From: Leucobacter chromiisoli
GTDB taxonomy: Bacteria > Actinomycetota > Actinomycetes > Actinomycetales > Microbacteriaceae
NCBI RefSeq assembly: GCF_016522505.1
Contig: NZ_JAEHOH010000011.1
Coordinates: 1 to 64,000, forward strand
Direction of reading: 5' to 3'
Length of the DNA stretch: 64,000 nt
In this document: in pieces, positions 33,151 through 64,000 of the stretch
Layout of the letters: each line of letters starts with the position of its first letter
Position numbering within the stretch: the first letter of the stretch is position 1
Position numbers and translations under genes: made by a program
Notes under the pieces: generated by a model
What the model saw: the letters and a program-made list of their open reading frames with translations, nothing else
The model's database searches: none
Told to the model about the DNA's origin: nothing

Positions 33151-33154
33151 GGTG

Positions 33155-33245
33155 CGGCCCCCTGCGCGGTGGCATCTCCGGGAACTCCCCCAGGGCAGAA
33201 ATGCAGCAAGGGCACCGGGGCTCTGCCAGGTGCGCAGGGGGTCTT
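33155..33245 (+). ncRNA. ffs: Signal recognition particle RNA, small bacterial (4.5S) type
   Basis: The end stem pairs 33158-33167 (CCCCCTGCGC) with 33232-33241 (GCGCAGGGGG). Within it the apical hairpin has the conserved asymmetric loop, with CCCAGG on one side and GCAGCAAGGG on the other, which is where Ffh binds. The tip reads GCAGAAATGC rather than the usual CGGAAG tetraloop. About 90 nucleotides long. The RNA guides ribosomes translating membrane proteins. The stop of ppk2 on the other strand falls right at its 3' end. Confidence 0.93.
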
Positions 33246-33246
33246 G

Positions 33247-34116
33247 TCACGGCCAGGTCAGGTCGAGGGTGCGCTCCACCCGCGCCCGCTGCTCGGCCAC
33301 GTCGAAGTCGGCCTCGGGCCAGTCGGGGCTCATCCTCCGCAGCTCCGTCACCACGAGCCGCTGCACCGCGGCGCGCGCGTACCACTTGGCGTTCGCGGGC
33401 ACCACGAACCAGGGCGCGTGGGGCGCGTCCGTCCGCTCGATCGCGATCTGGAACGCCTCCATGTACTCCGCCCAGAAGGCCCGCTCGTCGACGTCGCCGG
33501 CGTTGTACTTCCAGTGCTTCTCGGGGTCGTCGAGCCTCGCGAGCAGGCGCTCCCCCTGCTCCTCGGGCGAGATGTGCAGCATGATCTTCAGGATCCGCAC
33601 GCCGTCCTCAGCGATGCGCCGCTCGAATTCGGCGATCGCCCCGTACCGCCGCTCGATCTCCTGCGGCGGGGCGAGGCCCCGCACCCGCTGCACGAGGACG
33701 TCCTCGTAATGCGAGCGGTCGAACAGTCCGATGACGCCCGGCCCCGGGACTCGCGACTCCACGCGCCAGAGGAAGTCGTGCTCGCGCTCCTGCGCGGTCG
33801 GGGCCTTGAACGCCGTGAGCTCGAGCCCGTACGGCTCGAGCTGCGCGAAGACGTGGTTCACGATGCCGCCCTTGCCCGCGGCGTCCATGGCCTGCAGCAC
33901 GACGAGCAGGCGATCCCGCGCCCCGGACCGGCTCTGCGCGAAGAGCTTCTCCTGCAGTTCGCGCAGCTCCTGTGCGGCGCGGGCCAGCTCCGCTTCCCCC
34001 TGTTTGCGATCGGCACCCGTGCCCGGCGTCGAGTCGGGATCGATCTCGCGCAGCCGGACACCCGGGCCAACGCGCAACAGCTCCGCGACCTCGGCACTCC
34101 AGAACGATGCGGACAT
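33247..34116 (-). CDS. ppk2: Polyphosphate kinase 2 family protein
   Basis: It transfers phosphate between polyphosphate and nucleotides. It has 289 residues and a P-loop-like fold: Walker A LQAMDAAGKGG, Walker B region FDRSHYEDVLVQRVRG, and the lid Arg segment LDDPEKHWKYN. The ATG at 34116 is chosen since GGGAGG precedes it with good spacing, although the frame is open upstream through the transglycosylase region. It fits the PPK2 nucleotide phosphotransferase group; whether it makes or uses ATP cannot be said. Its stop touches the 3' end of the SRP RNA gene. Confidence 0.94.
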   Translation of the reverse strand: MSASFWSAEVAELLRVGPGVRLREIDPDSTPGTGADRKQGEAELARAAQELRELQEKLFAQSRSGARDRLLVVLQAMDAAGKGGIVNHVFAQLEPYGLELTAFKAPTAQEREHDFLWRVESRVPGPGVIGLFDRSHYEDVLVQRVRGLAPPQEIERRYGAIAEFERRIAEDGVRILKIMLHISPEEQGERLLARLDDPEKHWKYNAGDVDERAFWAEYMEAFQIAIERTDAPHAPWFVVPANAKWYARAAVQRLVVTELRRMSPDWPEADFDVAEQRARVERTLDLTWP

Positions 34117-34310: not shown

Positions 34311-35189
34311 TCACCCGACCGACGCGTAGTGATCCGCGGCGTCGGCGACCCGGTTGTTGTACTCGACGGTGTCGTTGTACGCGGCGACGGCCGCGATCCA
34401 GTTCTCCGGCTGCCGCAGGTCGCCCCCGACCTCGCACAGATACCGGGCTGCGGCGAGCGCGCTGTCGTCGATGTGCTGCGGGTCCTCGATCCCATCGCCG
34501 TTGCCGTCGGCGCCCCAGGTCGCCCAGGTGGAGGGGATGAACTGCATCGGACCCACGGCGCGATCCCACACCGGGTCGCCGTCGAGCGCTCCCTCGTCGG
34601 TGTCGTGGATGCGGTCGGTGCTCGTGCCGTCGAGCGGGATGCCGACGATCGGCGGGGAGGCCCGTCCGTTCCCGGCGATGCTGCCGCCGTCGATCGTGCC
34701 GTGCTCGGATTCGACCCACCCGATGCCGGCGAGCGTGTTCCATCCGATGCCACATCCGGGTTGTTCGGTGGACATGTGGACAGCGGCTCCCGCGTACGCG
34801 CGCATGGCCCGATACGAGATCCCCGCCTGCTCGGCGAGCGGATCCGACCACGACGTGTTCACGAGGGCCGTGATGCTGCCCTGCTCTTCCGGCGTCTCCC
34901 GGTCGACTCCCTGATCGGGCGGGATCACCGACGTCGGTGCTGCGGCATCGTCGGATTCCTCGGTGACCTCAGCAGGGGCGGGGGCGGCTTCGGTACGCCC
35001 GACCTCGTGGAGGGCGATCCCCGCGCCGGCGACCAGGCCGACCCCGAGCACGGCGACGCCGGCGGCCGTCACGAGCCCCCAGGCGTTCCCTCTCCGTCTC
35101 GGTTCCCGCGAGCGGAACGCAGACGGTCGCCTGGTCTCCTCCTCACGCGCGGCTTCCGCGATGACGCGGTCGAAGTCGCCGTGCGTCAT
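34311..35189 (-). CDS. Membrane-anchored lytic transglycosylase (SLT/MltB-like)
   Basis: This predicted peptidoglycan-cleaving enzyme has 292 residues. A basic cytoplasmic N-terminus (1-34) is followed by one membrane helix (about 36-60), an acidic Pro/Ala/Glu linker and an extracellular catalytic domain (about 115-290). The domain shows IGWNTLAGIGWVESEHGT with the catalytic Glu, GPMQFIPSTWATWG, and AAVAAYNDTVEY, as in MltB-type muraminidases. The ATG at 35189 overlaps the stop of the anchored surface protein by four bases (ATGA), so it belongs to the transporter operon. An opening of the wall for that system is inference. Confidence 0.9.
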   Translation of the reverse strand: MTHGDFDRVIAEAAREEETRRPSAFRSREPRRRGNAWGLVTAAGVAVLGVGLVAGAGIALHEVGRTEAAPAPAEVTEESDDAAAPTSVIPPDQGVDRETPEEQGSITALVNTSWSDPLAEQAGISYRAMRAYAGAAVHMSTEQPGCGIGWNTLAGIGWVESEHGTIDGGSIAGNGRASPPIVGIPLDGTSTDRIHDTDEGALDGDPVWDRAVGPMQFIPSTWATWGADGNGDGIEDPQHIDDSALAAARYLCEVGGDLRQPENWIAAVAAYNDTVEYNNRVADAADHYASVG

Positions 35190-37684
35190 ACCGCCGACAC
35201 CGCGCCGTCCGGCACCGCACCCGGCGACCCGTCGCCCGGGATCGTCCTTCTCAGTCTGACCACATACCAGACGGTGCCACCGGTGATCCCGGCGAGGGCG
35301 AGACCGCCGCCGAGTCCCAGGAGACCGGCGAGCAGAGCCGGGCTCGGCCCGTCACCCCCGAAGAGGTCGTCGAGGAAGCCGCCGGCGGCGTCGCTCCCCC
35401 CTCGGCCGCCCGCGCGCGAGCCCCGAGCGTTCCGCTTCCGGTCCTCTTCCGATTCGGCCTCCGCGTCCGCCTGCGCGGCCGCCAGGGCTTCCTCGGCGTA
35501 GTCGTGGACGGCCGCGTTCACCGCTGCGGCCTCGCCGGCATTGTGCGCGTTCAGCCCGCAGAAGGCGTCGCCGAGCGGAGCGTCGCCGACCTGGAAGACG
35601 TACGTGTGCGTCGCGGTCTGCAGCGATTGGCCGGTGCCGGGGTTGGTGACCACCGCGTTGGCGGTCAGCTTGTAGATGCCCCTGTCGCTGAACACCCAGT
35701 GCGCGTGCGTGTGCGCGGGCTCCGGAACTCGGATGGTGCCAGGGAGGTTGTACCGGCCGCCGTTCAGCAGCGGCTTCTTCCCGCCCCATTTGTCGTCGGT
35801 GTACAGGCTCACCGTGCCGGGGCCGTCGACTCCGGTGATGTTGATCGAGACATCGGTGTGGCCGCTGGGCCGTGTGGTGTTGGTATCCCATCCCGGCCAG
35901 ATCAGGTTCATGTCCTGACTGAGCGGCAGCCAGTATCCGCGGCCCGGGACGCCGGACGGGGCGCCGCCGACGGTGCCGAGCGCAGATTCCTTCACCTTCA
36001 TCAGCGTGGTCTCGGGCGCGCGCATCACACGGTGCCCGGTGACGTCCTCCATCAGCTGCATGACCGCGGTCCCGTTCGCGGACGACACGTAGAACGCGTC
36101 GATGTGGCCGTGGTCCAGGGTCACATCGGGGCGGCAGTCCTGGGCCGGGGCGCGGTTGCCGGCGGATCCGCCACCGCCACCGCCTGGGGTGTTGCCGCCT
36201 CCGCCGGGGTTGTTCCCGCCCCCACCCGGGTTATCGCCGCCACCAGGGTTGTTGCCGCCGCCGCCGGAAGGATCGACGATATCGAACGTGTCCCAGCCGA
36301 CGAAGTTTCCCTCGGCGTCTTTCACGACGAACTGCTGGTCCTTCTGCGCTTTCGCACCCTGCAGGTTCACGGTGAACGCACCTCGCTGATCGGCCTGCAC
36401 CCAGCCGCGCCAGGCCGGATCCTGGCCCGTCAGCCAGACGGACACCCAGTGTCCCGCGAGCGCGGAGTTCTCGAGTTGGGCACTGACGTCGTATCCGGTG
36501 ACCACTTCGGGGCTGGTGACAGTGACGTTCGCGCCGGGCTGCTGCTTGCCGATCTCCCCCGGCGGCACCGGGGTGGTGTCGTCGTGCGATGGTCGCTGCT
36601 GCGCCTCCCCATCGACTCGCAGGTTCACCGAGCCCGAGCTCGACGGATCGAAGTCGGTGCTCCAGGTGGGGACGAACTCGGCGACGATCTGGTGGTTGCC
36701 GGGGTTCAGCGCGTCGGCTCTGAACTGCGCCTGCCCGTCGACGACCGGGGTGTGCCCGAGCACGGTACCCGTGGAGTTGTCGCGGAACTGCACGGCGCCC
36801 GCGGCGTTCGCCGGATCGACGTTCGCGGTGAGCAGCACCGGTTCCCCCTGCTCGATGCTCCGGCTGCCCGCCTCGAGCGACACCGAGGTCGGCTGCGTGT
36901 GCTCGGCGAGGTCGCCGACGACGAAGGTGTAGTCGTTCTGTGCTTTCTGGCCGTTCGCGGTGAGCTCGAAGGTGAGCGTGTAGGTGCCGGGCTGCGTGAA
37001 CACCCAGAAGGCGTGCACGTGGCGAGGGACGTTGAGCCGCCAGGCGCCGAGATCCTCCTCGGAGCTGAAGAGGCGGTCGATTCCGCCGCGAGGTGCGCCT
37101 GCGGCGAGCTCGACGCGACCCGGCCCTTCGAGGTTCGCCAGGCGCACGTCGACGTGCGTCACGCCGCCTGCGGCGAGTTTCGGGTCTTCGGTGCTGAATC
37201 CCGGCCAGATGATGCCGCTCTCACGCACTTCCGGCGCCATCCAGTACTCGTCGCCGACCTCGCCGATGAACGCCCAGCGGTCCTGCGCGTTCCGGATGGT
37301 GTCCTTCCCCGCGTCGCTGAGGTGGAACAGGAGCTCTTCGGTCTCCAGACGCTTGGCGACCTCCCCGTCCACATCGGCCTGGCTCCCCGCGACCAGTGTG
37401 CCGCTGTCGAGGAACGCCGACACCGCGTCGGTGTGCACGTCCTCGAGCACGCGCTTCTCTCTGCTCGCGGGAGCCGGCTGATCCGACTGGCCGGCCGGGA
37501 CGGGGATCTCGGCCGAGGGGTCGACCGCGTTCAGGAGCGAACCGGCCCCGGTCCCGTCGTCCGTGTCGATCGCGGTGGCGGCGGTGGGAGCGCCGCCGAG
37601 TCCGACGATCACGAACAGGAAGGCGAGGAGGATCGTGGGCACGACGCGCATCCGCGCGTTGCGGAGCGACGACGTCGCACTCAT
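35186..37684 (-). CDS. Surface protein with two actinobacterial anchored-repeat domains
   Basis: This 832-residue exported protein has a signal peptide (1-38) and two 'P_ac_wall_RPT' type domains (TIGR03769). The first spans about 75-255 (GVTHVDVRLANLEGPGRVEL, then VPRHVHAFWVFTQPGTYTL), and the second about 545-720 (TDVSINITGVDGPGTVSLY, then AHTHAHWVFSDRGIYKL). Between them lie an Ig-like repeat (about 260-370), another beta domain and a Gly/Asn/Pro spacer (GGGNNPGGG units). A C-terminal membrane helix (about 795-820) with a short basic tail anchors it; no sortase motif is seen. It overlaps the permease stop and the transglycosylase start by four bases each. Metal handling is inferred. Confidence 0.88.
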   Translation of the reverse strand: MSATSSLRNARMRVVPTILLAFLFVIVGLGGAPTAATAIDTDDGTGAGSLLNAVDPSAEIPVPAGQSDQPAPASREKRVLEDVHTDAVSAFLDSGTLVAGSQADVDGEVAKRLETEELLFHLSDAGKDTIRNAQDRWAFIGEVGDEYWMAPEVRESGIIWPGFSTEDPKLAAGGVTHVDVRLANLEGPGRVELAAGAPRGGIDRLFSSEEDLGAWRLNVPRHVHAFWVFTQPGTYTLTFELTANGQKAQNDYTFVVGDLAEHTQPTSVSLEAGSRSIEQGEPVLLTANVDPANAAGAVQFRDNSTGTVLGHTPVVDGQAQFRADALNPGNHQIVAEFVPTWSTDFDPSSSGSVNLRVDGEAQQRPSHDDTTPVPPGEIGKQQPGANVTVTSPEVVTGYDVSAQLENSALAGHWVSVWLTGQDPAWRGWVQADQRGAFTVNLQGAKAQKDQQFVVKDAEGNFVGWDTFDIVDPSGGGGNNPGGGDNPGGGGNNPGGGGNTPGGGGGGSAGNRAPAQDCRPDVTLDHGHIDAFYVSSANGTAVMQLMEDVTGHRVMRAPETTLMKVKESALGTVGGAPSGVPGRGYWLPLSQDMNLIWPGWDTNTTRPSGHTDVSINITGVDGPGTVSLYTDDKWGGKKPLLNGGRYNLPGTIRVPEPAHTHAHWVFSDRGIYKLTANAVVTNPGTGQSLQTATHTYVFQVGDAPLGDAFCGLNAHNAGEAAAVNAAVHDYAEEALAAAQADAEAESEEDRKRNARGSRAGGRGGSDAAGGFLDDLFGGDGPSPALLAGLLGLGGGLALAGITGGTVWYVVRLRRTIPGDGSPGAVPDGAVSAV

Positions 37685-38652
37685 GTGGTCTTCTCCTGCT
37701 CCGATGCTCGAGGAGGCGACGGAAGGATCACCGGCGTCTCCGGGACGTGCTCGCCCGACGCCAGTGTGCTCGGCATCGGCGTGCGCTCCTCGGACGTCCG
37801 GCTGCGCAAGCGCCTCGCGAGCAGGCCGTGGCGCGGCGCGAAGAACCACGCCAGCAGGAACACGACCGTCGCGACGAGCACGATCATGCCGCCGACGGGC
37901 AGGTCGAAGCTCCACGACACGTACATGCCCACGAGTGCCGACAGCCCGCCGATGATCGGGGCGAGCAGCATCATGACCGCCAGCCGGTCGGTGAGCAGCC
38001 GGGCCGCAGCCGCGGGGGTGATCAGCAGCGCGAGCACGAGGATGTTGCCGATGGTCTGGATGGAGATCACGATCGCGATCGCGACCATGACGTACAGCAG
38101 CAGGTCGAGCACGAACACCGGGATTCCCGTCGCCCGCGCCATCTCGCGGTCGAGAGTGACGGCGACGAACTCCTTGTGGAACAGGAACAGGACCAGCAGG
38201 AGTACGACGCCGGTGATCGCGACGGTGTAGAGGTCCTCGTCCGGGATGCCGGTGATCGAGCCGAACAGGAACTGCTGCAGAGAGCCGGAGTAGCCGGGTG
38301 ACATCGAGATGATCACGATGCCCAGGGCGAACGCGGCGACGAAGAAGACGCCGATGATGGAGTCCTCCTTGATCCGGCGGTTCTGCGAGAACACGGCGAC
38401 GAGGATCGCGGTGAGCACGCCCGCGACGGCGCCGCCGAGCACGAGGTTGCCCTGGATCACGAACGCGACCGCGAGCCCGGGGAAGACGGCGTGGGCGACG
38501 GCGTCGCCGATGAACGCCATACCGCGCAGCACGACGTAGCAGCCGATCACCCCGCACACGACGCTCGACATGACGGCGATGACGAGCGCCTTCGGCAGGA
38601 ACCGCAGGTCGGGATTGAGCAGATCCTGGATGAAGTCGACGGGCGAGAGCAT
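37681..38652 (-). CDS. Anchored-repeat type ABC transporter permease (ZnuB-like)
   Basis: This is a metal-type ABC permease of 323 residues with eight or nine helices. FLPKALVIAVMSSVVCGVIG, RGMAFIGDAVAHAVFPGLA and LTDRLAVMMLLAPIIG are typical of ZnuB/MntB/TroC permeases. The ATG at 38652 shares one base with the ATPase stop (TGATG), so translation is coupled. A cytoplasmic C-terminal tail of about 50 residues rich in Arg, Pro and Ser is extra for the family. The ion is probably zinc or manganese, judged from the binding protein and the Zur-like box. Confidence 0.92.
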   Translation of the reverse strand: MLSPVDFIQDLLNPDLRFLPKALVIAVMSSVVCGVIGCYVVLRGMAFIGDAVAHAVFPGLAVAFVIQGNLVLGGAVAGVLTAILVAVFSQNRRIKEDSIIGVFFVAAFALGIVIISMSPGYSGSLQQFLFGSITGIPDEDLYTVAITGVVLLLVLFLFHKEFVAVTLDREMARATGIPVFVLDLLLYVMVAIAIVISIQTIGNILVLALLITPAAAARLLTDRLAVMMLLAPIIGGLSALVGMYVSWSFDLPVGGMIVLVATVVFLLAWFFAPRHGLLARRLRSRTSEERTPMPSTLASGEHVPETPVILPSPPRASEQEKTT

Positions 38653-39473
38653 CAGCCGGCCACCCCCAGTGTCCTCAGCACGGGGTTCGACGCCCTGATC
38701 TCGAACGTGCGCATCCACGCTTCGGGTTCCCGCAGAGCCGAAGGCGGGGCATCGGCGATGATGGTGCGGTTGATGAGGCACAGGCGCGAGCACTCGTGGA
38801 TCGCGCCGACGAGGTCGTGTGTGGTCATCAGCACCGCCTTGTCCTCCTGCGAGAGCTGCTGGAAGAGCTCGAGCAGGAGTTCTTGGGTCGGCATGTCGAG
38901 CCCGGTGAAGGGTTCGTCGAGCAGCAGGAGCGCCGGATACAGCGCGAGCGCCCGCGCGACGAGCACACGCTGACGCTGCCCGCCGGAGAGCTCGCCGACC
39001 GGTCGCTCGGCCAGGTGGCTCATGTGGACGCGGTCGAGTGCCTCGGCGGCCGCCTCGAAGTCGACGGCTTTCGGCCGCCGGAACCAGCCGATGCGACGAA
39101 TGCGGCCCGTCATGACCGTCTCTTCGACGGTGATCGGCAAGTCCCAGGCGAACTCGTGCCGCTGCGGCACGTATCCGATGCGGGATCTGGCCGCGTGGCC
39201 GGTGCTGCCGTCGACCCGGATCTCACCGGTGCGGGACCGGATCAGGCCGAGAACGGCCCGGATCGTGGTGGTCTTCCCCGCCCCGTTGGGGCCGATGAGC
39301 CCCATGAACTCTCCCCGGTCGAGGGTGAAGTTCACGTCGTCGAGCACCTCGCGTCCGCCGAGGCGCACACCCAGCCCGCTGACCTGCAGTGCGCTGGGCT
39401 CCGTTGCACGCCTCCCGGCGGAGACCGTCGTCGGGCGCTCCGATTCGGAGCTTCGCAGGTCTACGGCGGTCAT
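38652..39473 (-). CDS. Anchored-repeat type ABC transporter ATP-binding protein
   Basis: This 273-residue ATPase drives the metal permease. Walker A is GLIGPNGAGKTTTIRAVLGL, the signature is GELSGGQRQRVLVARAL, Walker B ALLLLDEPFTGLD, and the H-loop TTHDL. The first 28 residues are a disordered extension. The order ATPase before permease, with overlapping stop and start, matches metal ABC operons. The ATG at 39473 overlaps the stop of the preceding repeat protein by four bases (ATGA). Confidence 0.95.
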   Translation of the reverse strand: MTAVDLRSSESERPTTVSAGRRATEPSALQVSGLGVRLGGREVLDDVNFTLDRGEFMGLIGPNGAGKTTTIRAVLGLIRSRTGEIRVDGSTGHAARSRIGYVPQRHEFAWDLPITVEETVMTGRIRRIGWFRRPKAVDFEAAAEALDRVHMSHLAERPVGELSGGQRQRVLVARALALYPALLLLDEPFTGLDMPTQELLLELFQQLSQEDKAVLMTTHDLVGAIHECSRLCLINRTIIADAPPSALREPEAWMRTFEIRASNPVLRTLGVAG

Positions 39474-40465
39474 CGTTCGGTCTCCTGCGCGGCTCGGGCG
39501 GCTCGGGCACGGGACTTGGCTCTGCGTGTGCTGACGATGACGACGAGGATCGCGATCACGAGGCCGACCCCGACGGCACCGACCACGATCCAGATGAGCA
39601 GGCTCAAACCGCCGTCGCCCTCGGACTCCGTCGCCGGTCCATCAGGGAGGGTGTCCTCGGGCGCGGCATCCGCGACGAGGGCCTCGTCGATCTCCGCTCC
39701 GAACGCTTCCTGCGGGTCGGTGGCGTCGCCCACCGAGAAGCGGAGGGTGTCGCGTGCCGAGACCATCTCTCCGGAGGCGAGCTCGCCGTCGATCTGCACC
39801 TCCACGAGGTAGATGCCCGGTTCGCTGAACACCCAGTTCGCGTGGGTGTGGGTGTTCACCTCGATCCAGGTGTCCTGGGGGAAGGCGTCGAGCGTCGACC
39901 ACAGGGGTTCGGTGTCTCCGAAGTTGCCGCTCTGCAGGAAGACGGTGAGCTCCCCGGGCCCCTCGACGCCGAGCATGCTGAGCGTCACCCCGAGATCGAG
40001 GTTCTCGAGCACGGTCGGCTCCTGGGTGTTCCATCCGGCCCAGATGACGTCGGGTTCCTGGACCTGCGGGACGATCCAGACGTCGCTTCCCGGGTCGAGG
40101 CCGAGGAAGGCGAACTCCTCGGAGTCCGGCACCTGGCTGATCGAGGCATCGTTCACCTGCAGCACGACGTCTTCGAGGTTGCGCCACAGGCGGGGCACGT
40201 CGGTGTCGTCGTGGATCTGGATGCGCCACTCGCCCGTGTTGAGGGTCGGGCCGAAGTCGACGTGCCCGGCGTCGCGCACCACCTGGCCGGTGCCCTGAGC
40301 CTGGTCGGGATCGAGGACCTGGGCGAGCCCGTCGTCCTCCTGCGCGTGAGCGGCTCCTCCCATGAGCGCCACCGGCAGCAGCGCAGCGGCGGCGATCGCA
40401 CCGGCGAGGCCTCGTGCCGCGCGCCTGAGCCGGTCGCGTCGCTGGGTCACTGGTGTGCGCGTCAT
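39470..40465 (-). CDS. Membrane-anchored surface protein with one repeat domain (choice-of-anchor M)
   Basis: This 331-residue exported protein has a signal peptide ending near residue 41 (LMGGAAHAQ) and one anchored-repeat domain, about 55-225. In it NLDLGVTLSMLGVEGPGELT and NTHTHANWVFSEPGIYLVEV show the family pattern with a His-x-His-x4-F run. A spacer and a C-terminal membrane helix (about 282-310) with a basic tail (RRAKSRARAARA) follow. Both ends overlap the neighbours by four bases. The domain resembles those in the other surface proteins of the operon. The conserved histidine cluster may bind a metal. Confidence 0.88.
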   Translation of the reverse strand: MTRTPVTQRRDRLRRAARGLAGAIAAAALLPVALMGGAAHAQEDDGLAQVLDPDQAQGTGQVVRDAGHVDFGPTLNTGEWRIQIHDDTDVPRLWRNLEDVVLQVNDASISQVPDSEEFAFLGLDPGSDVWIVPQVQEPDVIWAGWNTQEPTVLENLDLGVTLSMLGVEGPGELTVFLQSGNFGDTEPLWSTLDAFPQDTWIEVNTHTHANWVFSEPGIYLVEVQIDGELASGEMVSARDTLRFSVGDATDPQEAFGAEIDEALVADAAPEDTLPDGPATESEGDGGLSLLIWIVVGAVGVGLVIAILVVIVSTRRAKSRARAARAAQETER

Positions 40466-42093
40466 GGTTCCGGGGTCTCCTCTGCAGTGCCGGTGTCGGC
40501 GGTATCGGTGTGGCCGCTACCGCCGCCTGTGCCGAGGCAGTCGCGGAGCGAGTTCGCGTTGAATCGCATCATCTCGATGTAGGTGGTGACGTTCTGATCG
40601 AACGCGTCCCCGTAGATGGGGCACACCTCGATCCCCTGCTCCTTGGCGACCTCGACGAGGGTCGACGACCGGGAGGCGAGGTTCGGCTCGAGGAACACGG
40701 CGGGTACATGGAGGTTGCGGATCGTCTCGGTGAGGCGCTTGCGTTCCGCCAGCGACGGTTCGACCGCCGGATTGGGGGTGACGAATCCGGAGATCTGCAC
40801 GTCGTAAGCCTGGGCGAGGTATCCGAACGCGTCGTGCGTGGTGACGAGCGTGCGTCTGCCCTCGGGCACATCGGCGATCGTGTCCCGCACTTCCGCGTCG
40901 AGCGCCTCGAGTTCCTTCAGGTAGGCGTCCGAGTTCCTACGGTACTCGGCCCCGCCGTCCGGATCGACTTCGATGAGGGTGTCGCGGATGATCTCGACGT
41001 ACGACATGGCGTTGCCGACGTTCTGCCACAGGTGCGGGTCGATCTCGCCGTGCACGTGCTTGCCGAGCACCGCTTGCGGGAGCTGGTAGACCGGATCGCC
41101 GGCGCGCCCGAGGAAGCGGTAGGCGGGGTCTCCGGGAATCTCGTGCCTTGCCGTGTTGGGCACCTCCACGACGACGTCGTCGACGGGGAAGAACTCCTGG
41201 TGCACGTCGCCGGACCCGTGCTCGTGGTCGAGGAGCACCTCGAACTCCCGGGCGTCGAGGTCGACGGTGAGATCGGAGTGACCGGCGTTCAGCACGTACG
41301 CGTCCTCCTTCCCGGGCACCGAGTACGGATCCACACCCACGGCGAACACGACCCGTCCGGTCGCGATGGGGACGGGTTTCTGGTCGGCGGAGACCTGCAG
41401 CTTCGCCTGCAGGTCGAGCGTGTAGATGCCCGGCTCGGTGAAGGCCCAGCTGAGGTGCGTGTGCGCGGCAGGCGGCAGGATCACCGAGTCGTCGCGGTAG
41501 CCGCCCGAGGCGTCGAAGCCGTCGCTGGAGTCGAAGTAGACATCGATGTCGCCGAAGCTGCCGGTCAGGTATGCGGTGAGCTCCCCCTGGCCCCGCACGT
41601 TCGTAGCCGAGAGGTAGACGTCGGAAGCGCGGGTCGCCCCCAGGTCGGCGCCGTCGCCTTTGACGCGCAACCCGAGCCAGATGGTGTCGAGCGACACGTC
41701 CTCGACGAGCGGGATGATCTCCGCGGCGTATTTCACCGCGTCCTCCGCGAGCGCCACGTTCGGAACGTCGTCGGGGAGGTTGGTGTCGAGGGCTGTGATG
41801 AGGTTCTGCTCCTCGAGCATGAGGTAGTTGGAGAGGGCGACGTCGGCGTACACGATGTCGCGGATGTCGCGGAGCGTGGGCTCGTAGCTGTGCGGGTCGC
41901 CGCCCTCGGGGACGAGCGCGGTGACGTTCGCGCGATCGCCGGCGACGTTCCGGGTCAGATCGGCGAGGATTCCGGTCGTCGTGACGACGTTGACGCGCCC
42001 GTCGTCATCGCCTCCCGCGATTGGAGACGACGCACAGCCGGCGAGCAGCGCTGTCGCGAGCACTGCGGCCGTGCCGAGGGTGAGGGGTCGCAT
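40462..42093 (-). CDS. Metal ABC transporter substrate-binding lipoprotein with an inserted repeat domain
   Basis: This 543-residue ZnuA-type lipoprotein has lipobox LLAGC (Cys20). The N-terminal half (30-125) includes the metal-binding His68 in GGDPHSYEPTL. Residues about 130-345 are an insertion with an anchored-repeat domain (TNVRGQGELTAYLTG, then AAHTHLSWAFTEPGIYTLDL) and a His/Asp-rich stretch (LLDHEHGSGDVHQEFF). The ZnuA fold then resumes at about 346, with GEIDPHLWQNVGNAMSYVE, TTHDAFGYLAQAY and CPIYGDAFDQ. The usual length of ZnuA is about 310. The whole arrangement matches the 'anchored repeat ABC transporter, substrate-binding protein' group. A GTG two codons upstream is also possible as start. 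Confidence 0.9.
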   Translation of the reverse strand: MRPLTLGTAAVLATALLAGCASSPIAGGDDDGRVNVVTTTGILADLTRNVAGDRANVTALVPEGGDPHSYEPTLRDIRDIVYADVALSNYLMLEEQNLITALDTNLPDDVPNVALAEDAVKYAAEIIPLVEDVSLDTIWLGLRVKGDGADLGATRASDVYLSATNVRGQGELTAYLTGSFGDIDVYFDSSDGFDASGGYRDDSVILPPAAHTHLSWAFTEPGIYTLDLQAKLQVSADQKPVPIATGRVVFAVGVDPYSVPGKEDAYVLNAGHSDLTVDLDAREFEVLLDHEHGSGDVHQEFFPVDDVVVEVPNTARHEIPGDPAYRFLGRAGDPVYQLPQAVLGKHVHGEIDPHLWQNVGNAMSYVEIIRDTLIEVDPDGGAEYRRNSDAYLKELEALDAEVRDTIADVPEGRRTLVTTHDAFGYLAQAYDVQISGFVTPNPAVEPSLAERKRLTETIRNLHVPAVFLEPNLASRSSTLVEVAKEQGIEVCPIYGDAFDQNVTTYIEMMRFNANSLRDCLGTGGGSGHTDTADTGTAEETPEP

Positions 42094-42203
42094 TCGCACG
42101 GGGATCTGGTGGCTCTCTGTCTCTACTCGAGGCGATCGACGGTCGTTCCGCCGCGGGCGGGCTCTCTGATCGGTTCTGTTCGGTTCTGTTCCGAATGGAT
42201 GTC

Positions 42204-42240
42204 GGTGTGGCCGATGCCGGGGGATGGCACCGGCCACACC
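42204..42240 (-). terminator. Hairpin between the LASTG surface gene and the transporter operon
   Basis: A 10-bp stem GGTGTGGCCG with CGGCCACACC encloses a 17-base loop, right after the stop of the upstream surface protein gene (42267). On the minus strand it may end or reduce read-through into the binding-protein gene. The 173-base gap 42094-42266 also contains a duplicated CGGTTCTGTT just left of the stem. Confidence 0.55.
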
Positions 42241-42266
42241 GGACGATGCTCGCGCGAGGGCGCCGA

Positions 42267-44933
42267 TTACTCGGCGGTGCCCCGCAGCGAGCGCTTGCGG
42301 GCCGCGAGCACGGTTCCGGCGCCTGCGACGAGGAGCAGGGCTCCCCCGAGCACGTAGCCGGTCAGCTCGCCGCCGGTGCTGGCGAGGCCGCCTGCACCGC
42401 CCCCGGCACCGTTGCCGTTCCCGTTCTCGCCCTCGTCGCCCGGGCCCTGGCCCGGGTCGTCGCCGACGTTGAGGGTGACGGCGTCGGACTCCGCGACCAC
42501 GGCGTGATCGTGGTCGTAGAGCACGGCCTTGATCTGCGCGCCGTCATCGCCGTCGACGATCTCGTACTCGAGGGCGTCGCTGAGGGCGCCGTTCAGAACG
42601 GAGAACTCGTCATCGCCTGAGCGCTGGATGAACCAGTGCCAGTGATCCTCACCGGTCTCGGGATCCTGCACCGCGTTCAGCGAGGCGACGTCACCGATCT
42701 GATACTCGTCGGCCAGGCCCTCGATCGTGATCGAGGTCTGCGGGGCCGGCTCGGAATCCTCGGCCACGTTGAGCGAGACCGGGTCGGACTCGGCGACCAC
42801 CGCGTGATCGTGGTCGTAGAGCACGGCCTTGATCTTCGCATCGTGGTCGCCCTCGGCGACCTCGTACTCGAGCGCGTCGGTCGACGCCCCCGAGATCACG
42901 GAGAACTCCTCATCGCCCGCGCGCTGGATGAACCAGTGCCAGTGATCCTCACCGGTCTCAGGGTCCTGCACCGCGTTCAGCGACGCGACGTCGCCGATCT
43001 GATACTCGTCGGCCAGACCCTCGATCGTGATCGAGGTCTGCGGCTCGGGCTCTTCGCCGTGATTCTCGACGTGGATGGTCACCGGCTCGGAGGAGACGTA
43101 CTCCTCACCGTTGTCGTAGGTGAGGCGGGCCATCACCCGGGCGCCGTCGAACTCGTCGGAGACCTCGAACGCGTACTCGGCCGAGTTCTCGCCTTCCACG
43201 GTGGTCCACTCGTCTTCACCCGGCAGCTGCACGAGCCACTCGAAGCGGGTGAGGACCGACTCCGGGTCGACGCTCGCCGTGAGGGTCGCGGTGTCGCCGG
43301 AGTGGTAGTGGTCGGAGAGGCCGCCGACCGTCACCTGCTGGTGCGCCGGGGCGCCGTGGTCGTCCACCTCCACGGTGACCGCGTCGGCTGCGAGCACGTT
43401 GCCGTCGGCGTCCAGCAGTTCCGCGGTGACCTCGGCGTTGTTCAGCGCCTGCTCGGCGATCATCTGGAGCTGGGCTCCGGCAGCGCCGTCGACGCGGACG
43501 GGCTCGTCCTGGTCCACGCGCTGCACGTACCAGCGGAAGCTGCCGCCTTCGACGGCGGGCTCGGCGTTGGCGGTCAGGGTGATGGGGTTGCCCTGGTGGT
43601 AGTGATGCGCGAGGCCCGAGATCGTCAGGTCGTACTCCGGCGCCGGAGCCTCGCTGGGAACGTTCAGCGCCACCGGGTCGGACTCGGCGACCACGGCGTG
43701 ATCGTGGTCGTAGAGCACGGCCTTGATCTTCGCATCGTGGTCGCCCTCGGCGACCTCGTACTCGAGCGCGTCAGTCGACGCCCCCGAGATCACGGAGAAC
43801 TCCTCATCGCCCGCGCGCTGGATGAACCAGTGCCAGTGATCCTCACCGGTCTCAGGATCCTGCACCGCATTCAGCGAAGCGGTGTCGCCCACCTCGTATG
43901 CATCGGCCAGGCCCTCGATCGAGATCGTCGTCGCGGGGGTCTCGTCGCCGCTCGCCTGGATCGTCACGGGCTCCGATACGACCTGGATCGGCGGCAGGTC
44001 GAATCCGTCGACGCCGAAGTCGCGGCCGCCCGAGACGGTCGCACGGTACTGCGCGCCATCAGCTGCTGCGACGGTGAGTGCCGCCGCGGTCTCTCCGTCG
44101 AGCAACTGCCACTCGGCATCGTCCGAGGCGCGGGTCTCCCAGGCGAAGCTGCCGAAGTTCGCACCCTCGGGTGCCTGGACAGCGGACAGGGTGACCTGCT
44201 CGCCGCTCTCGAACTCGCCGTCGGCGCCGGAGATCGACAGACTCTGCGGTGCGGGGACCACGGTGAAGGTGTAGGTGGCCGAGTTGGTGGTGCCGGTCTT
44301 GCTGCCGTCGGCGCTCGCCACGTCGGCCTGGGCCGACAGCGTGTAGGTGCCGGGCTGGGTGAAGCCCCAGTTGATGTGCTCGTGGTTGAGCGAGGACTGG
44401 TGGATGGTGCCCGGGAGCTTCCAGCCCTCATTCAGTCGCTGGACAGGCGTGCCCCCGCGTCCGGTGGTCCACAGGTAGGCCTCTCCCCCGTCCGGCGCCG
44501 CCTGCACGTCCACGTTGATGTCCACGGTCGCGTTGGAGCCGAAGTGGGACTGCAGGTTCATGCTGTCCCAACCGGGCCACAGGAGATCGGGGTCGTCGAG
44601 CGGGGTCAGCGGCAGGTAGTACAGATCCTGCGGCGCGTCGGCGGGGGCATCTGCGGAGGTCAGATTGATGGCGTAGGCATCGCTCTTGACCTGCAGGTTC
44701 ACGTTCTCGGGACTGCGGAGCACGCCGTTTCCGGTGACGTCCTCCTTCAGCATGAGCTGCGGATTGTTGTCCTCATCGAGGTTGAGGAAGAAGGTGTCGA
44801 CGTGGCCGCGGTCGAGGGTGACCGGATCGTCGAGCACCTCCGCCGCGAACGCCGGGGTCGGAGCTGCCAACCCGGCGAGAAGCGCGAGGGCGCCGACTGC
44901 GGCGCCACCTCGCAAGCGGGAAGAGACGGTCAT
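42267..44933 (-). CDS. Sortase-anchored surface protein with a repeat domain and His-rich Ig-like repeats
   Basis: This 888-residue protein has a signal peptide (1-30, ends APTPAFA), an anchored-repeat domain (about 32-220: LDRGHVDTFFLNLDEDNNP, then HEHINWGFTQPGTYTLSAQ), and about six Ig-like repeats. Three nearly identical repeats carry HWHWFIQRAGDEEFSV and KAVLYDHDHAVVAES; two others carry LAHHYHQGNP and LSDHYHSGDT. The end is LASTG (about 850), a membrane helix and RKRS, a class E sortase (LAXTG) signal. AAAGG precedes the ATG at 44933. The histidine pairs suggest a surface metal store that feeds the downstream transporter (inference). Confidence 0.9.
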   Translation of the reverse strand: MTVSSRLRGGAAVGALALLAGLAAPTPAFAAEVLDDPVTLDRGHVDTFFLNLDEDNNPQLMLKEDVTGNGVLRSPENVNLQVKSDAYAINLTSADAPADAPQDLYYLPLTPLDDPDLLWPGWDSMNLQSHFGSNATVDINVDVQAAPDGGEAYLWTTGRGGTPVQRLNEGWKLPGTIHQSSLNHEHINWGFTQPGTYTLSAQADVASADGSKTGTTNSATYTFTVVPAPQSLSISGADGEFESGEQVTLSAVQAPEGANFGSFAWETRASDDAEWQLLDGETAAALTVAAADGAQYRATVSGGRDFGVDGFDLPPIQVVSEPVTIQASGDETPATTISIEGLADAYEVGDTASLNAVQDPETGEDHWHWFIQRAGDEEFSVISGASTDALEYEVAEGDHDAKIKAVLYDHDHAVVAESDPVALNVPSEAPAPEYDLTISGLAHHYHQGNPITLTANAEPAVEGGSFRWYVQRVDQDEPVRVDGAAGAQLQMIAEQALNNAEVTAELLDADGNVLAADAVTVEVDDHGAPAHQQVTVGGLSDHYHSGDTATLTASVDPESVLTRFEWLVQLPGEDEWTTVEGENSAEYAFEVSDEFDGARVMARLTYDNGEEYVSSEPVTIHVENHGEEPEPQTSITIEGLADEYQIGDVASLNAVQDPETGEDHWHWFIQRAGDEEFSVISGASTDALEYEVAEGDHDAKIKAVLYDHDHAVVAESDPVSLNVAEDSEPAPQTSITIEGLADEYQIGDVASLNAVQDPETGEDHWHWFIQRSGDDEFSVLNGALSDALEYEIVDGDDGAQIKAVLYDHDHAVVAESDAVTLNVGDDPGQGPGDEGENGNGNGAGGGAGGLASTGGELTGYVLGGALLLVAGAGTVLAARKRSLRGTAE
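42474..42743 (-). repeat. Ig-like repeat, copy A
   Basis: This is a 90-codon unit, third of a set inside the surface protein gene and the most C-terminal. It lies exactly 300 bases from copy B. It shares long identical DNA runs with B and C but has diverged in the middle, where codons for the unit's GDDGAQIKAV differ. Confidence 0.85.
42774..43043 (-). repeat. Ig-like repeat, copy B
   Basis: The DNA is nearly identical to copy C over most of its length (about 42781-43000), including synonymous positions. This points to recent duplication or gene conversion within the gene. Confidence 0.88.
43672..43935 (-). repeat. Ig-like repeat, copy C
   Basis: The DNA is nearly identical to copy B but separated from it by two diverged HYH-type repeats. 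It diverges only toward its N-terminal side on the protein (about 43880-43935). Confidence 0.88.
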
Positions 44934-44980: not shown

Positions 44981-44995
44981 CAAGAATCATTATCG
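44981..44995 (-). promoter_or_regulatory. Zur/Fur-like box upstream of the surface-protein gene
   Basis: Read on the minus strand the site is CGATAATGATTCTTG, which matches the actinobacterial Zur consensus TGAAAATGATTTTCA at 10 of 15 positions, with the left half strong. It is 47 bases upstream of the ATG at 44933, a place where a repressor could block transcription. Confidence 0.55.
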
Positions 44996-45281: not shown

Positions 45282-45296
45282 TGATATTGATTCTCA
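45282..45296. promoter_or_regulatory. Zur-like box beside a plus-strand -10
   Basis: TGATATTGATTCTCA agrees with the Zur consensus TGAAAATGATTTTCA at 12 of 15 positions and is near-palindromic. It sits just upstream of TATAAT at 45299-45304. It might act on the divergent surface-protein gene as well, about 350 bases away. Confidence 0.6.
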
Positions 45297-45423: not shown

Positions 45424-45906
45424 ATGAGCACGGAACGAGTAGCGGTCGTCACAGGAGCGGCGCGGGGCATCGGTCGCGCGACGGCGATCGCGTTCGCGCG
45501 TGCGGGGTATCGCGTCGCGGGCGTCGATATCGCGGCTCCCGCCAGCTCCGCGATGGACTACGGCCCCGCCACCCCCGAGGATCTCGTGCAGACCGGGAGG
45601 CTCGTGGAGGATGCCGGTGGCGAGTGGCTGCCGGTCATCCTCGATCAGCGGGATCGTGCGGCGGTGAGCGAGGGGTTCGCGCAGATCGTGGAGCGGTTCG
45701 GCGGCGGCGAGCCGACCGGCGACGTCGAGCAGGACGAGCGGACCGCGGCGGATGCGCAGCGGAAGAAGCTCCCCCTGGGTGTCCCGTGGATCGAGCCCGA
45801 GGACGTCGCCCCGCTGGTGGTGTTCCTCGCCTCCGAGGAGGCGCGCATGGTCAGCGGCACGAGCTTCGCCGCGACCGGAGGCGACAGCGCCAACTTCACG
45901 GCGTGA
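45424..45906 (+). pseudogene. SDR oxidoreductase with an internal in-frame deletion
   Basis: This 160-residue frame keeps the SDR N-terminus (VAVVTGAARGIGRATAIAFA) and the C-terminus (PWIEPEDVAPLVVFLASEEA, then VSGTSFAATGGDSA) but lacks about 110 residues between FGGGEPTGDV and the tail. The lost part includes the NNAG strand, the catalytic Ser and the YxxxK pair, so no SDR catalysis is possible. Full-length relatives of this type are about 270 residues. GAAGGGGGAC precedes the ATG, and the stop overlaps the MFS start (GTGA). It may persist as a leader for the MFS gene. Confidence 0.75.
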
Positions 45907-59688: not shown

Positions 59689-60297
59689 TCAGCGGATGTA
59701 GACGTCGAGATGGTTGCCGAAGGTGCCCCGGTCGTAGATCTTGCCTCGGGAGCCGAAGGGCGTGTCCACGACGGTGCCCTTCGGAGCCGAGCCCGCGAGC
59801 ACGATGTAGCCGTCGCCGTCGCTGACGTACCCCGCCGCGTTGACGTGGCGACCCGGGATCTGCAGCCCCTGCCCCGGGAGCACCTGCTGACTGTAATAGG
59901 TGAACTTGTACCCGCCCCAGTTGACGACTCCGCTGAACATGAACTGCTCCAGCGTGTAGAGAGCGTCGGACGGCGGCTCGTCCTCCGACGCCGCGCCGGC
60001 CGATCCCGAGTCGCCGGCACCCGCCCTCGGCACCTCTTCCACCGCGGAGACGTCGACGTCGAACCCGGGCTCCGACGCATCCGCGGAGGTCAGCCCCTGG
60101 GCGTTCCGGCTGTCGTGCACCGCCGCTCGACCCTCGTCGGCGAACGCCGTCGACATCGAGAACGGCGCGGTGACGACGCTTCCGAAGAACACGAGGGCCG
60201 CGGCGGCCGCCCCGACGCCGCGGGCGCGGGACCACGGGGACGAGGCGGAGCGGGAGACCGGGAGAACGACAGGCACAATGTAACGATTGTATCTCAC
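59689..60297 (-). CDS. Secreted protein with a DPBB-like C-terminal domain
   Basis: This 202-residue protein has an N-terminal signal peptide (cleavage near residue 53, SMSTAFA-DEG), a Ser/Ala/Glu spacer (about 55-110), and a compact domain of about 85 residues. The domain pattern is LPGQGLQIPGRHVNAAGYVS, then GDGYIVLAG, then KGTVVDTPFGSRGKIYD, which recalls the 3D/double-psi beta-barrel domains of wall-associated proteins in many Gram-positives. Enzymatic activity cannot be shown. The GTG at 60297 is used; a small inverted repeat ACAAT-n6-ATTGT lies over codons 3-8. Confidence 0.75.
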   Translation of the reverse strand: MRYNRYIVPVVLPVSRSASSPWSRARGVGAAAAALVFFGSVVTAPFSMSTAFADEGRAAVHDSRNAQGLTSADASEPGFDVDVSAVEEVPRAGAGDSGSAGAASEDEPPSDALYTLEQFMFSGVVNWGGYKFTYYSQQVLPGQGLQIPGRHVNAAGYVSDGDGYIVLAGSAPKGTVVDTPFGSRGKIYDRGTFGNHLDVYIR

Positions 60298-60580
60298 GCT
60301 GTCGCCCCTGGGCTCGGATCACCGCGCCGGCGGGAACACGCGCCGCTCGCCGACGCGGACTTCGATCGTGCCGTCGCCGCGGACCCCGCTTGGTAGAAGT
60401 GCTGGCGCGCACGCCGCCCCGCACTCATTTTCTGCAGGGGCCGGCAGCCGTGCGGCCAGCGGGGGCGTCCCCGGCGACCGCGTCGACACGGGGTTGCCCA
60501 CGCCCATGCGGGCTTCGCAGTGGCGATGCGGTCGGCCGATTCGATCAGGAGAGTTCCGTCTCACCGAGCCGCTGTACCTG

Positions 60581-60859
60581 ATGAGCCTGATCGGAACAGC
60601 ACTGCTCTTCGCCATCGGCCTCCTGACGCTACTGTTGCCGAGCCACGATGACGGGGACACTCGGAAGGCCGTGACGATTCTCGGCACGATCACCGCGTTC
60701 GTCGCCGCTGCCTGGGTGGTGCCCGCGGGAGCCACCTTCTACGCGGAATCGGTAGAACAGGCCTCGCTCGGGACCTGGATGCTGGTGTTCGTCGTGACGC
60801 TCTGGTACGGGCTGATCCCGAGGTTGCTGATCCCGCGCGAAGAACAGCCCTCCCGCTGA
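60581..60859 (+). CDS. Small membrane protein, unknown function
   Basis: This 92-residue protein has three hydrophobic helices: about residues 2-20 (LIGTALLFAIGLLTLLLP), 30-52 (TILGTITAFVAAAWVVPAGA) and 62-80 (GTWMLVFVVTLWYGLIPRLL). The ATG at 60581 has no ribosome binding site; an AGGAGAG lies far upstream at 60547-60553, so the start is uncertain. No family is recognised. The 283 bases before it (60298-60580) hold no other supported gene. Confidence 0.5.
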   Translation: MSLIGTALLFAIGLLTLLLPSHDDGDTRKAVTILGTITAFVAAAWVVPAGATFYAESVEQASLGTWMLVFVVTLWYGLIPRLLIPREEQPSR

Positions 60860-60863
60860 TTCT

Positions 60864-61034
60864 TCACCCCCGCCGGTACTTCTCGCGAGTGTCCGTGGCG
60901 ATGCCGCCGAGCAGGCCGTTCTCGGGGTCGAGAAAGCACCGAACCCGCTCTCGGAGCGTCGCCGGCCGCCGATGCGGAACCTCACCCGCCAGGACAGACC
61001 CGTCCCTGTTGGTGCGGGAACGAACGGAAACCAT
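60864..61034 (-). CDS. Small orphan protein, 56 residues
   Basis: A short frame is supported by a good ribosome binding site (AGGAG, eight bases before the ATG at 61034). It is Arg-rich (TNRDGSVLAGEVPHRRPATL, then LRERVRCFLDPENGLLG) and ends right after the small membrane gene on the other strand. No family is recognised. It may be a remnant of a longer gene or a real small protein. Confidence 0.4.
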   Translation of the reverse strand: MVSVRSRTNRDGSVLAGEVPHRRPATLRERVRCFLDPENGLLGGIATDTREKYRRG

Positions 61035-61129
61035 GAGCACATCTCCTGCCGATATTGGCGAAGATGTTGGCACAGGATGAAACCCTGTCACAGTATCCGG
61101 GAAATGCCTGCTCATGAGGCGATTTAAGA

Positions 61130-61576
61130 GTGGGGCTCCTACGCCACTACTGCAATCTTGAATTTACGACCCGTCAAATTGATGACCTAATCATCAAAGC
61201 ACAAGCGCAACTTCAGCCCATCGCCCCCGTAAGAGCACCGCTCCCTCCGCGCGCGGCCAGGGCGGGGAAGCACCTGCCGCGGGAGACTGAATCATCGATC
61301 ATCTCAGACTATGAATCAGGGCTGGCTATGAATCAGATCGCCGAGAAATACGGGATCCACCGTGTGACAGTGAGCATCGTGCTCGGTCGCAACGGCACCT
61401 CTAAGCGCCCGAAAGGCCTCAACGATCATCAGAAAGCCAGAGCTGTTGAACTTTACGAGTCCGGGCTCTCGTTAGCGACAGTGGGTAAGCAACTCGGCTT
61501 CAACGCCACGACGATTCGGGCGGCCCTCCTTAAACAGGGTGTCTCCATGCGCGATCCCCACGGCCGGGCACGGTAG
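61130..61576 (+). CDS. Double helix-turn-helix protein, recombinase-like C-terminus
   Basis: This 148-residue protein has two HTH motifs of the resolvase/invertase type. The first is SDYESGLAMNQIAEKYGIHR with VTVSIVLG (about 58-85) and the second is VELYESGLSLATVGKQLGFN with TTIRAALL (about 104-132). The N-terminal 45 residues are not the recombinase catalytic domain, so there is no serine nuclease. It could be the DNA-binding half of a lost recombinase or a regulator. It starts with GTG at 61130 in an AT-richer stretch. Confidence 0.7.
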   Translation: MGLLRHYCNLEFTTRQIDDLIIKAQAQLQPIAPVRAPLPPRAARAGKHLPRETESSIISDYESGLAMNQIAEKYGIHRVTVSIVLGRNGTSKRPKGLNDHQKARAVELYESGLSLATVGKQLGFNATTIRAALLKQGVSMRDPHGRAR

Positions 61577-61638
61577 CTAGTATCTGCTGTGATCCACGCG
61601 TTCGAGAGTGTCCAGGCTCACGGCAAGGGTTCAGAGCT

Positions 61639-62652: not shown

Positions 62653-62726
62653 GACTCCATCATGCCCTCTCGATGGCTACCACTTCGGACTCCTGTGACA
62701 CTTCGAGGCCTGCTGCTGCGGTGTAT

Positions 62727-63536: not shown

Positions 63537-63669
63537 AGATGAGAGTTTCTTCCTGTCCGAGGCGCACCAGAGGTGTCATGTACCAGCTTGCCACGAGACG
63601 CAGACAGGCTTGCCAAGGCGGTACGGGAATGGATCCACGTCGAGGAAAACGGAGTGATGACTGTCACCC

Positions 63670-63698
63670 TTGACTTCTTTTGCCTCTTGGCGCATAGT
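63670..63698 (+). promoter_or_regulatory. Promoter of the right-edge gene
   Basis: TTGACT at 63670-63675 and CATAGT at 63693-63698 are separated by 17 bases. The predicted start of transcription, near 63705, is 6-7 bases before the ATG at 63712, so the transcript is nearly leaderless. Confidence 0.55.
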
Positions 63699-63711
63699 CA
63701 GACGCTGAAGT

Positions 63712-64000
63712 ATGACGGAACGCAATTCTCACCCCTCTACAACACCTCTCGACCAGAACAGGTCGTTCCCTTCTGGCGTCACGGTCCTGCGATTAGAAAT
63801 GCTCAACGGCGCCGACGGCATGGCCGAGTTCTATTCGCCGGCCCCTCAGAAGATCAAAGCGGTTCTCCCGCGGGCAGCGTTTCAGCAAGTCATGGAGAAG
63901 CTGCCAGAGGTCTTCGATGATGCGGCGTGGTTGGAAGTCACGCTACTCAAGGACGTCGGCGGGATCCTGGAACTAGCCGTGGAGGATCAGCTGAAGCATC
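63712..64000 (+). CDS. 5' end of an unidentified protein, cut by the window edge
   Basis: The frame is open from the ATG at 63712 to the last base (96 codons). Residues begin MTERNSHPSTTPLDQN and continue with VLRLEMLNGADGMAEFYSPA and FQQVMEKLPEVFDDAAWLEV. No stop is seen. A good promoter sits directly before it but no ribosome binding site is obvious. The protein is not recognised; the composition is that of the AT-richer right segment. Confidence 0.6.
   Translation, partial: MTERNSHPSTTPLDQNRSFPSGVTVLRLEMLNGADGMAEFYSPAPQKIKAVLPRAAFQQVMEKLPEVFDDAAWLEVTLLKDVGGILELAVEDQLKH

Follow-up and report, generated by a model that had tools for sequence, protein, structure and literature searches.

The window analysed here is a stretch of 64,000 nucleotides from Leucobacter chromiisoli (contig NZ_JAEHOH010000011.1, positions 1 to 64,000), and contains an operon of seven genes, all on the minus strand and running from 44933 to 34311, which were found intact in an open reading frame check of the window. 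With a probability of about 0.82, this operon is a Zur-controlled zinc-scavenging system of the ZnuAECB/ZnuFG (TIGR03769-03773) kind. The assignment draws on the gene order, the protein families, a Zur-type box, the conserved HxD and HxH motifs, a permuted domain in the binding protein and a three-histidine pattern in immunoglobulin-like (Ig-like) repeats, all of them read from the sequence.

The first gene (42267 to 44933) encodes a wall protein of 888 residues, with an N-terminal signal, one choice-of-anchor M domain (hereafter M domain; GHVD ... HEHINWGF, 44259 to 44816, placed with the NF038134 profile), six Ig-like repeats and the sorting signal LASTG (42372 to 42386, counted from the translation), after which come a hydrophobic segment and a basic tail. 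A gap of 173 bases separates it from the gene for a ZnuA-type lipoprotein of 543 residues (40462 to 42093), the substrate-binding protein of the system, which matches all 486 positions of TIGR03772 with 748.8 bits (cut-off 350.45). Next are a ZnuE-like membrane protein of 331 residues (39470 to 40465) with one M domain (39731 to 40273), an ATPase (38652 to 39473; TIGR03771, 352.5 bits, cut-off 268.8) and a permease (37681 to 38652; TIGR03770, 453.9 bits, cut-off 296.8). The order znuA-E-C-B is followed by znuF, represented by a ZnuF-like membrane protein of 832 residues (35186 to 37684), where a Big_3_5 Ig-like domain sits between two M domains (36920 to 37450 and 35588 to 36118). The last gene (34311 to 35189) encodes a membrane-anchored lytic transglycosylase of 292 residues, recognized by the Pfam models SLT_2 (29.1, cut-off 24.3) and SLT (24.5, cut-off 21.3). 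From the lipoprotein onward, the six genes overlap by 4, 4, 1, 4 and 4 bases, in agreement with an earlier note made from the sequence alone, which had described a seven-gene operon with overlaps of one to four bases.

The M domain is found in four exported proteins, and all of them score above the 55-bit cut-off of NF038134 (wall protein 125.3, lipoprotein 83.8, ZnuE-like protein 187.7, ZnuF-like protein 248.4). These hold five copies, two in the ZnuF-like protein and one in each of the others, and the H-x-H-x4-F pattern pointed out in the earlier note is present in all four. A search of the genome gave six matches to the M domain, two of which are the halves in the lipoprotein, and none beyond the operon. 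The family named in that note, TIGR03769 to TIGR03773, was recovered by the hidden Markov model search, with TIGR03772, TIGR03771, TIGR03770 and NF038134/TIGR03769 above cut-off. Its description of three proteins as anchored fits the first one, which has the LASTG sortase signal, and has to be given up in that form for the ZnuE-like and ZnuF-like proteins, whose C-termini consist of a hydrophobic segment and a basic tail without a sortase-type signal. Three sortase genes are located elsewhere in the genome.

The M domain and its permuted form

Two short motifs, HxD and HxH, characterize the M domain. Among 396 full copies outside the window (partial domains left out, kinship ignored), both are present in 360, neither in 34 and HxD alone in 2. 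A stricter motif applied to the same set finds both in 339, HxD only in 1, HxH only in 21 and neither in 35. The two motifs are therefore present or absent together, as expected of one shared site. In 39 aligned proteins combining M and Ig-like parts (M+Ig proteins), HxD keeps its H and D, and HxH both its histidines, without exception, and invariant Trp and Gly residues surround the motif. The predicted structure of one such protein from a relative (mean predicted local distance difference test score, pLDDT, 93.6) has a plain M domain whose strands, judged by eye, run in the unpermuted order. A profile of M+Ig proteins brought up no solved structure related to the M part, its two matches (E 4e-4 and 0.49) both reaching the Ig part.

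A set of loci from Micromonospora and Salinispora (L076, L083 and L095 among them) encodes, before the binding protein, an M protein in which one M domain has lost GHxD (with GADL in its place, for example). Most of these domains have lost HxH too, and they apparently constitute a natural metal-free comparison set.

The lipoprotein carries the halves of its M domain in reverse order. The C-terminal half (HTHLSWAF, 41338 to 41688, NF038134 positions 77-184) comes first and the N-terminal half (GHSD, 41071 to 41295, positions 1-73) second, and right after this insert follows HVHGEIDPHLW (41026 to 41058), a stretch of conserved His that belongs to the ZnuA zinc site. The earlier note was right in placing the repeat domain in the lipoprotein; the reversed order of the halves is a correction to it. 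The insert was doubled and compared with an M model built from 150 canonical M domains and no binding proteins, giving one unbroken match over positions 2-186 of 188 with 117.9 bits, against 3.9 bits at most for 100 shuffled, doubled inserts. This result rules out that the reversed motif arose by chance or from two broken domains.

The same arrangement is conserved in relatives, for which the named loci are the best 80 of 307. In all 81 binding proteins (window plus 80 loci) the C-terminal half precedes the N-terminal half, cleanly in 77 and with a longer first half in 4, and the motif order is HxH, GHxD, HxHGExDP (81 by the broader pattern, 61 by the strict HxH-GHxD spelling). An early alignment of binding proteins started from 31 loci, 28 of which gave a protein by text pattern and 24 were aligned; a later one (A2) includes 33 of the 80 named loci, 38 having passed the text pattern. 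H315 and H317 (numbered from the Gly at 42000) are invariant in all 34 aligned rows. By these comparisons of sequence, the M domain of the lipoprotein is circularly permuted. A literature search in open-licence PubMed Central found no earlier description of a permuted M domain in a binding protein, nor the term circular permutation in the ten papers checked for it.

The position of the insert suggests a function for it. The genome encodes two other ZnuA-type proteins, and the copy on contig C37 has a His-rich stretch exactly where the M insert sits. AztC cannot obtain zinc from AztD without a flexible loop at this place (residues 117-133), and every one of the three His in the loop is essential (PMC7463823). 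Because the insert occupies the loop position and the AztC loop is essential for zinc uptake from AztD, the M domain of the binding protein would, by analogy, take over the job of the His-rich receiving loop. The predicted structure of the lipoprotein (mean pLDDT 72.7) has mostly good confidence in the insert, at about residues 107-306, and not in much of the ZnuA N-lobe; in structure comparison it comes closest to AztC and further proteins of cluster A-I.

Zur-type boxes and the metal

The best Zur-type site in the window, TGATATTGATTCTCA, lies at 45282 to 45296, about 350 bases upstream of the ATG of the wall gene, and agrees with TGADAATNATTHTCA at 14 of 15 positions. Twenty mononucleotide shuffles of the window gave no Zur-box score above 12. 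A second, weaker Zur-like site (12 of 15) is found at 44981 to 44995, about 48 bases upstream of the same ATG; 12-point sites are expected 0.3 times per shuffled window, and one further site of this strength, at 28411, is unrelated to the operon. The operator agrees with the published actinobacterial Zur boxes, given as TGAAAATGATTTTCA and a 21-base palindrome in one paper (PMC2823685) and as tGaNNatSatNNtCa in another (PMC5472717), and the corresponding operon of Corynebacterium diphtheriae had already been included in the predicted Zur regulon (PMC2823685).

Sites with at most one mismatch from TGANAATNATTNTCA occur four times in the 3.35-Mb genome, the operon box included, and a reversed-pattern control gave none. 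One of them is 19 bases upstream of the earliest possible start of a ZnuA-type gene, whose product has a long loop rich in His and scores best against AztC (225.4 bits, short of the cut-off of 350), and a Fur-family regulator gene is encoded about 4 kb from the box of this classical znuA. Another, in the region 3781 to 3934 of L154 (G000:C1), is placed about 17 bases before the gene for a type B ribosomal protein L36, which is cysteine-free and scores 80.3 bits (cut-off 70). A third box, in the region of about 2811 to 4352 of L155 (G000:C13), is placed at the beginning of ATP-binding cassette (ABC) ATPase genes, of which the second is nearest to NikE (139.9 bits, below the cut-off of 332.55). 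The ABC genes at this last locus are candidates, on sequence grounds, for a zinc-complex importer of the same regulon.

Zur-type sites are also concentrated in front of the operon in relatives. When at least 10 of 12 fixed positions had to match, the 80 loci gave 61 sites in 182 kb of upstream zones versus 57 in 1,410 kb elsewhere, and 43 of the loci have such a site in the upstream zone. In the permuted-palindrome controls for the box count (n=60) the mean was 4.0 and one control reached 58, compared with 77 observed.

Some points weigh against this assignment. The remaining 37 of the 80 loci are without a site of this quality in the scanned zones, Fur-type boxes look alike, and the genome has two Fur-family genes, on contigs C37 and C13. 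Because of the last two points, the regulator is assigned to Zur from the company of its target genes. Taken with that company, the box at 45282 is a predicted Zur site and the metal is very probably zinc. The earlier proposal of a metal importer with a probable metal-binding repeat is thus supported, and the metal is narrowed to zinc through the Zur-type sites.

Ig-like repeats and the distribution of the operon

Among the six Ig-like repeats of the wall protein, the second (43659 to 43931), the fifth (42762 to 43037) and the sixth (42462 to 42737), as located by repeat analysis, carry DHWHW and YDHDH, a three-histidine pattern that can be written HxHW ... DH. For the window and its relatives, 172 of 177 repeats were kept after gappy or identical rows were taken out. 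With kinship ignored, the HxH and the final His occur together in 51 and are jointly missing from 117, with 4 discordant cases, so that the two parts of the pattern agree in 168 of 172 repeats. In the model of a relative's protein, the strand 235-241 begins with the HxH (235 and 237), and residue 281, the last His, lies in the turn that follows the strand 271-277. In an Ig fold, the start of the former strand and the turn after the latter would be neighbours. Fold comparisons, which covered the Ig part of that M+Ig protein, returned Ig-like folds at Z 10.3-11.9, with 81-94 residues aligned in all but one, among the matches listed.

Repeat 2 alone matched no Pfam family up to E 0.01. When the wall protein is taken as a whole, a lectin-type Pfam family matches part of repeat 2 weakly (29.8 bits, with no single stretch passing). 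A profile of the repeat was run on hand-picked genomes, 23 chosen from the 31 in which the binding protein had been found and 34 lacking it; it matched 17 of the 23 operon genomes and none of the 34 others, and it also matches repeats of the family without the three histidines. The M domain was above cut-off in exactly the 23 operon genomes, and one operon-free genome had a weak M match. Those of the stronger repeat matches that were compared by eye share their reading frame with an M domain. The three-His Ig repeat is a candidate zinc module without a Pfam name, occurring in many actinobacteria; no earlier description of it was found in the open-licence PubMed Central literature. It is amenable to direct purification and testing.

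The operon itself is scattered among relatives. Within the family, 10 of 150 genomes have a binding protein above cut-off, and within the class 22 of 296, this genome being counted in both cases; the two other genomes of the genus both lack it. Named relatives belong to Microbacterium, Leucobacter, Micromonospora, Streptomyces, Jiangella, Nocardioides and Conexibacter. This patchy spread suits horizontal transfer or repeated loss. The binding protein, an M protein, the ATPase and the permease are found together at 75 of the 80 named loci; of the five incomplete ones, four are contigs of 3.1-8.3 kb and one (L121) is without a recognized permease. Of the 80 loci, 61 encode one or more M proteins whose C-terminus is of the LxxTG type. 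A transglycosylase homologue lies 3' of the permease on the same strand at only 16 of the 80 loci, 72 of which have more than 4 kb there, and this rules it out as an obligate member. Among 32 chosen genomes, 16 have a homologue, including some that are operon-free, and in some operon genomes it is encoded elsewhere or missing.

The gap between the wall and lipoprotein genes contains a GC-rich stem-loop without a T-run (42204 to 42240, minus strand; z-score -3.43 for the surrounding 180 bases), which was matched by 4% of shuffles. Stems of differing sequence occur at the same place in relatives, with at least 11 paired bases in 36 of 67 regions and matched by at most 1 of 50 shuffles in 22 of 67, the region of the window being one of the 67. 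This element, located after the wall gene, may keep the wall-protein message above the importer message.

Past the end of the operon, a bacterial small signal recognition particle RNA is encoded on the plus strand (33153 to 33249). On the other side, and divergent from the operon, lies a gene for a mycofactocin-type short-chain dehydrogenase without about 100 middle residues (45424 to 45906), which aligns with positions 1-92 of the 271 in TIGR03971 and with only the last 50 positions or so of other short-chain dehydrogenase models; it is probably a decayed gene. The final two 2-kb blocks of the window (60001 to 64000) have a G+C content of 0.634 and 0.595, and are perhaps another acquired stretch.

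Proposed zinc route and known systems

How Gram-positive bacteria move scarce zinc across a thick wall to a membrane importer is unsettled, and the two anatomical details described above, the permuted domain and the three-His repeat, suggest how it may pass inward. Upon zinc shortage, Zur would be released and the operon made. The wall protein, held by sortase, would collect zinc via its M domain and its three-His Ig repeats, and the two membrane M proteins would keep it at the membrane. The M domain of the lipoprotein, at the position of the His-rich loop, would then receive the metal and pass it over a short distance to the ZnuA site for import by the ABC permease, and the transglycosylase may open the peptidoglycan for assembly of the complex. 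In this scheme, the direction in which zinc flows, the part played by the Ig repeats and the transfer by way of the permuted domain are all inferred. One zinc domain would thus exist in two forms, plain in the donors (wall, ZnuE-like and ZnuF-like proteins) and permuted in the acceptor, where it replaces the ZnuA loop; together with an outermost three-His Ig collector, these would make up a wall-to-membrane relay, with a peptidoglycan cutter clearing the way. This complete picture is put forward tentatively.

The related cluster of C. diphtheriae offers evidence on several of these steps, and the view of the earlier note that the family had no worked-out mechanism is outdated by its analysis in 2025 (Peng et al. 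2025, PMC12445094). Thermal shifts indicate zinc binding by ZnuE, ZnuF and ZnuG, and full growth in low zinc needs ZnuE and its three histidines (PMC12445094). Deletion of the whole znuF-445 operon results in a longer lag (PMC12445094). Other results stand against the relay: single deletion of znuF or znuG leaves growth unimpaired when the transporter is present, the znuA deletion has a mild effect, and His-to-Ala forms still respond to zinc in thermal shifts (PMC12445094), which is why a strict relay is unproven. In the L. chromiisoli genome, the ZnuA-type protein encoded on contig C36, with neither insert nor His-rich loop, counts on the same side. The chain from wall to importer envisaged in the earlier note gains from the permuted domain in the binding protein, loses from the harmless znuF and znuG deletions, and is still a model.

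The main rival explanation is that the surface proteins act as a zinc store or sink rather than feeding the importer. With the transporter missing, ZnuF and ZnuG restrain growth in low zinc, and cells that retain it tolerate the loss of these two proteins; the authors of that study name sequestration and storage as possibilities (PMC12445094); the many M and Ig sites would also fit a surface zinc pool. Against this, the operon is expected to be expressed when zinc is short and not when it is in excess, the same M domain is found within the binding protein and in ZnuE, which is needed for uptake, and the genes of the surface proteins overlap those of the importer. A store or sink is thus possible, if somewhat doubtful. 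Another explanation takes the M domain as a scaffold joining the binding protein, ZnuE and ZnuF by M-M contacts, with histidines of structural value. The His-to-Ala form of ZnuE, less stable and still shifting with zinc (PMC12445094), would agree with this, as would the invariant Trp and Gly around the motif, but HxD and HxH are gained or lost as a set and ZnuE needs its histidines to function (PMC12445094), which makes a pure scaffold unlikely.

A manganese or mixed manganese/zinc importer under a metal regulator is very improbable. The manganese models match below their cut-offs (MntC 163.3 bits for the binding protein, MntA 230.9 for the ATPase, a SloB-type model 211.6 for the permease), and the ATPase score above that of zinc AztA (181, cut-off 220) and the nearest solved sequence, an MntA from Listeria, speak for manganese and against zinc, whereas zinc models prevail for the binding protein (AztC 204.2, cut-off 350) and the permease (AztB 224.8, cut-off 280), also below cut-off, the operator fits the actinobacterial Zur boxes, two of the three other genomic copies precede zinc-stress genes, and in C. 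diphtheriae the related cluster is under the control of zinc and Zur (Peng et al. 2019, PMC6711530). A plain manganese importer is ruled out by the Zur-type sites and the genes they accompany.

The core of the zinc-scavenging system is already known, and its occurrence here is real. What is added is the assignment to zinc for this genome, the permuted domain at the position of the receiving loop and the covarying three-His Ig module; the permuted domain makes concrete the question of whether the M domain of the binding protein is equivalent to the His-rich loop of a classical ZnuA. In NCBIfam, the system corresponds to the 'anchored repeat' ABC group TIGR03769-TIGR03773, for which the binding protein, the ATPase, the permease and four M proteins pass their cut-offs here. 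For TIGR03773 itself (cut-off 190.3), the two-M protein alone passes (205.6), and the ZnuE-like (172.5) and LASTG wall proteins (90.5) fall below.

The closest characterized relative is ZnuAECB-ZnuFG of C. diphtheriae (PMC12445094, PMC6711530), which has the same order of binding protein, M protein, ATPase and permease, followed by the two-M protein ZnuF. Both systems share the HxD/HxH motif, which their binding proteins carry in reverse; the zinc and Zur control reported there is paralleled by the Zur-type box here. For the C. diphtheriae ZnuA, the authors describe a motif in reverse order and with shorter spacing (PMC12445094); their text has no words for permutation, His-rich, loop, Ig domain or transglycosylase. 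The operon described here differs in starting with an LASTG wall protein with six Ig repeats and ending with a lytic transglycosylase.

Other zinc systems are comparable in single aspects. AztABCD from Paracoccus denitrificans has a cluster A-I zinc-binding protein with a partner that hands over zinc, and the AztC loop 117-133 and the M insert both stand ahead of the same conserved His (PMC7463823), although no AztD is found among the family matches of the seven genes and the Azt models are missed at the scores given above. Streptococcal AdcA, with its ZinT domain, and the Pht proteins likewise combine an accessory zinc domain of the binding protein with surface proteins bearing His motifs (PMC7858048, PMC12445094), but the accessory domain of AdcA is C-terminal, not inserted, and AdcA retains its own His-rich loop. 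ZepA from Anabaena is an exported, Zur-controlled zinc protein with a predicted Ig-like sandwich domain, and its three-His site H-x2-9-H-F/Y-H, with the motif H-[FY]-H, recalls the HxHW ... DH of the wall protein (PMC10957091). ZepA is a PEP-CTERM protein found in cyanobacteria, Proteobacteria, Nitrospirota and PVC bacteria (PMC10957091), and its third His stands ahead of the HxH instead of following about 40 residues later, as it does here. By this analogy of motifs, ZepA sets an independent precedent for a zinc protein at the surface with an Ig-like domain and a three-His site, the histidines being in another order.

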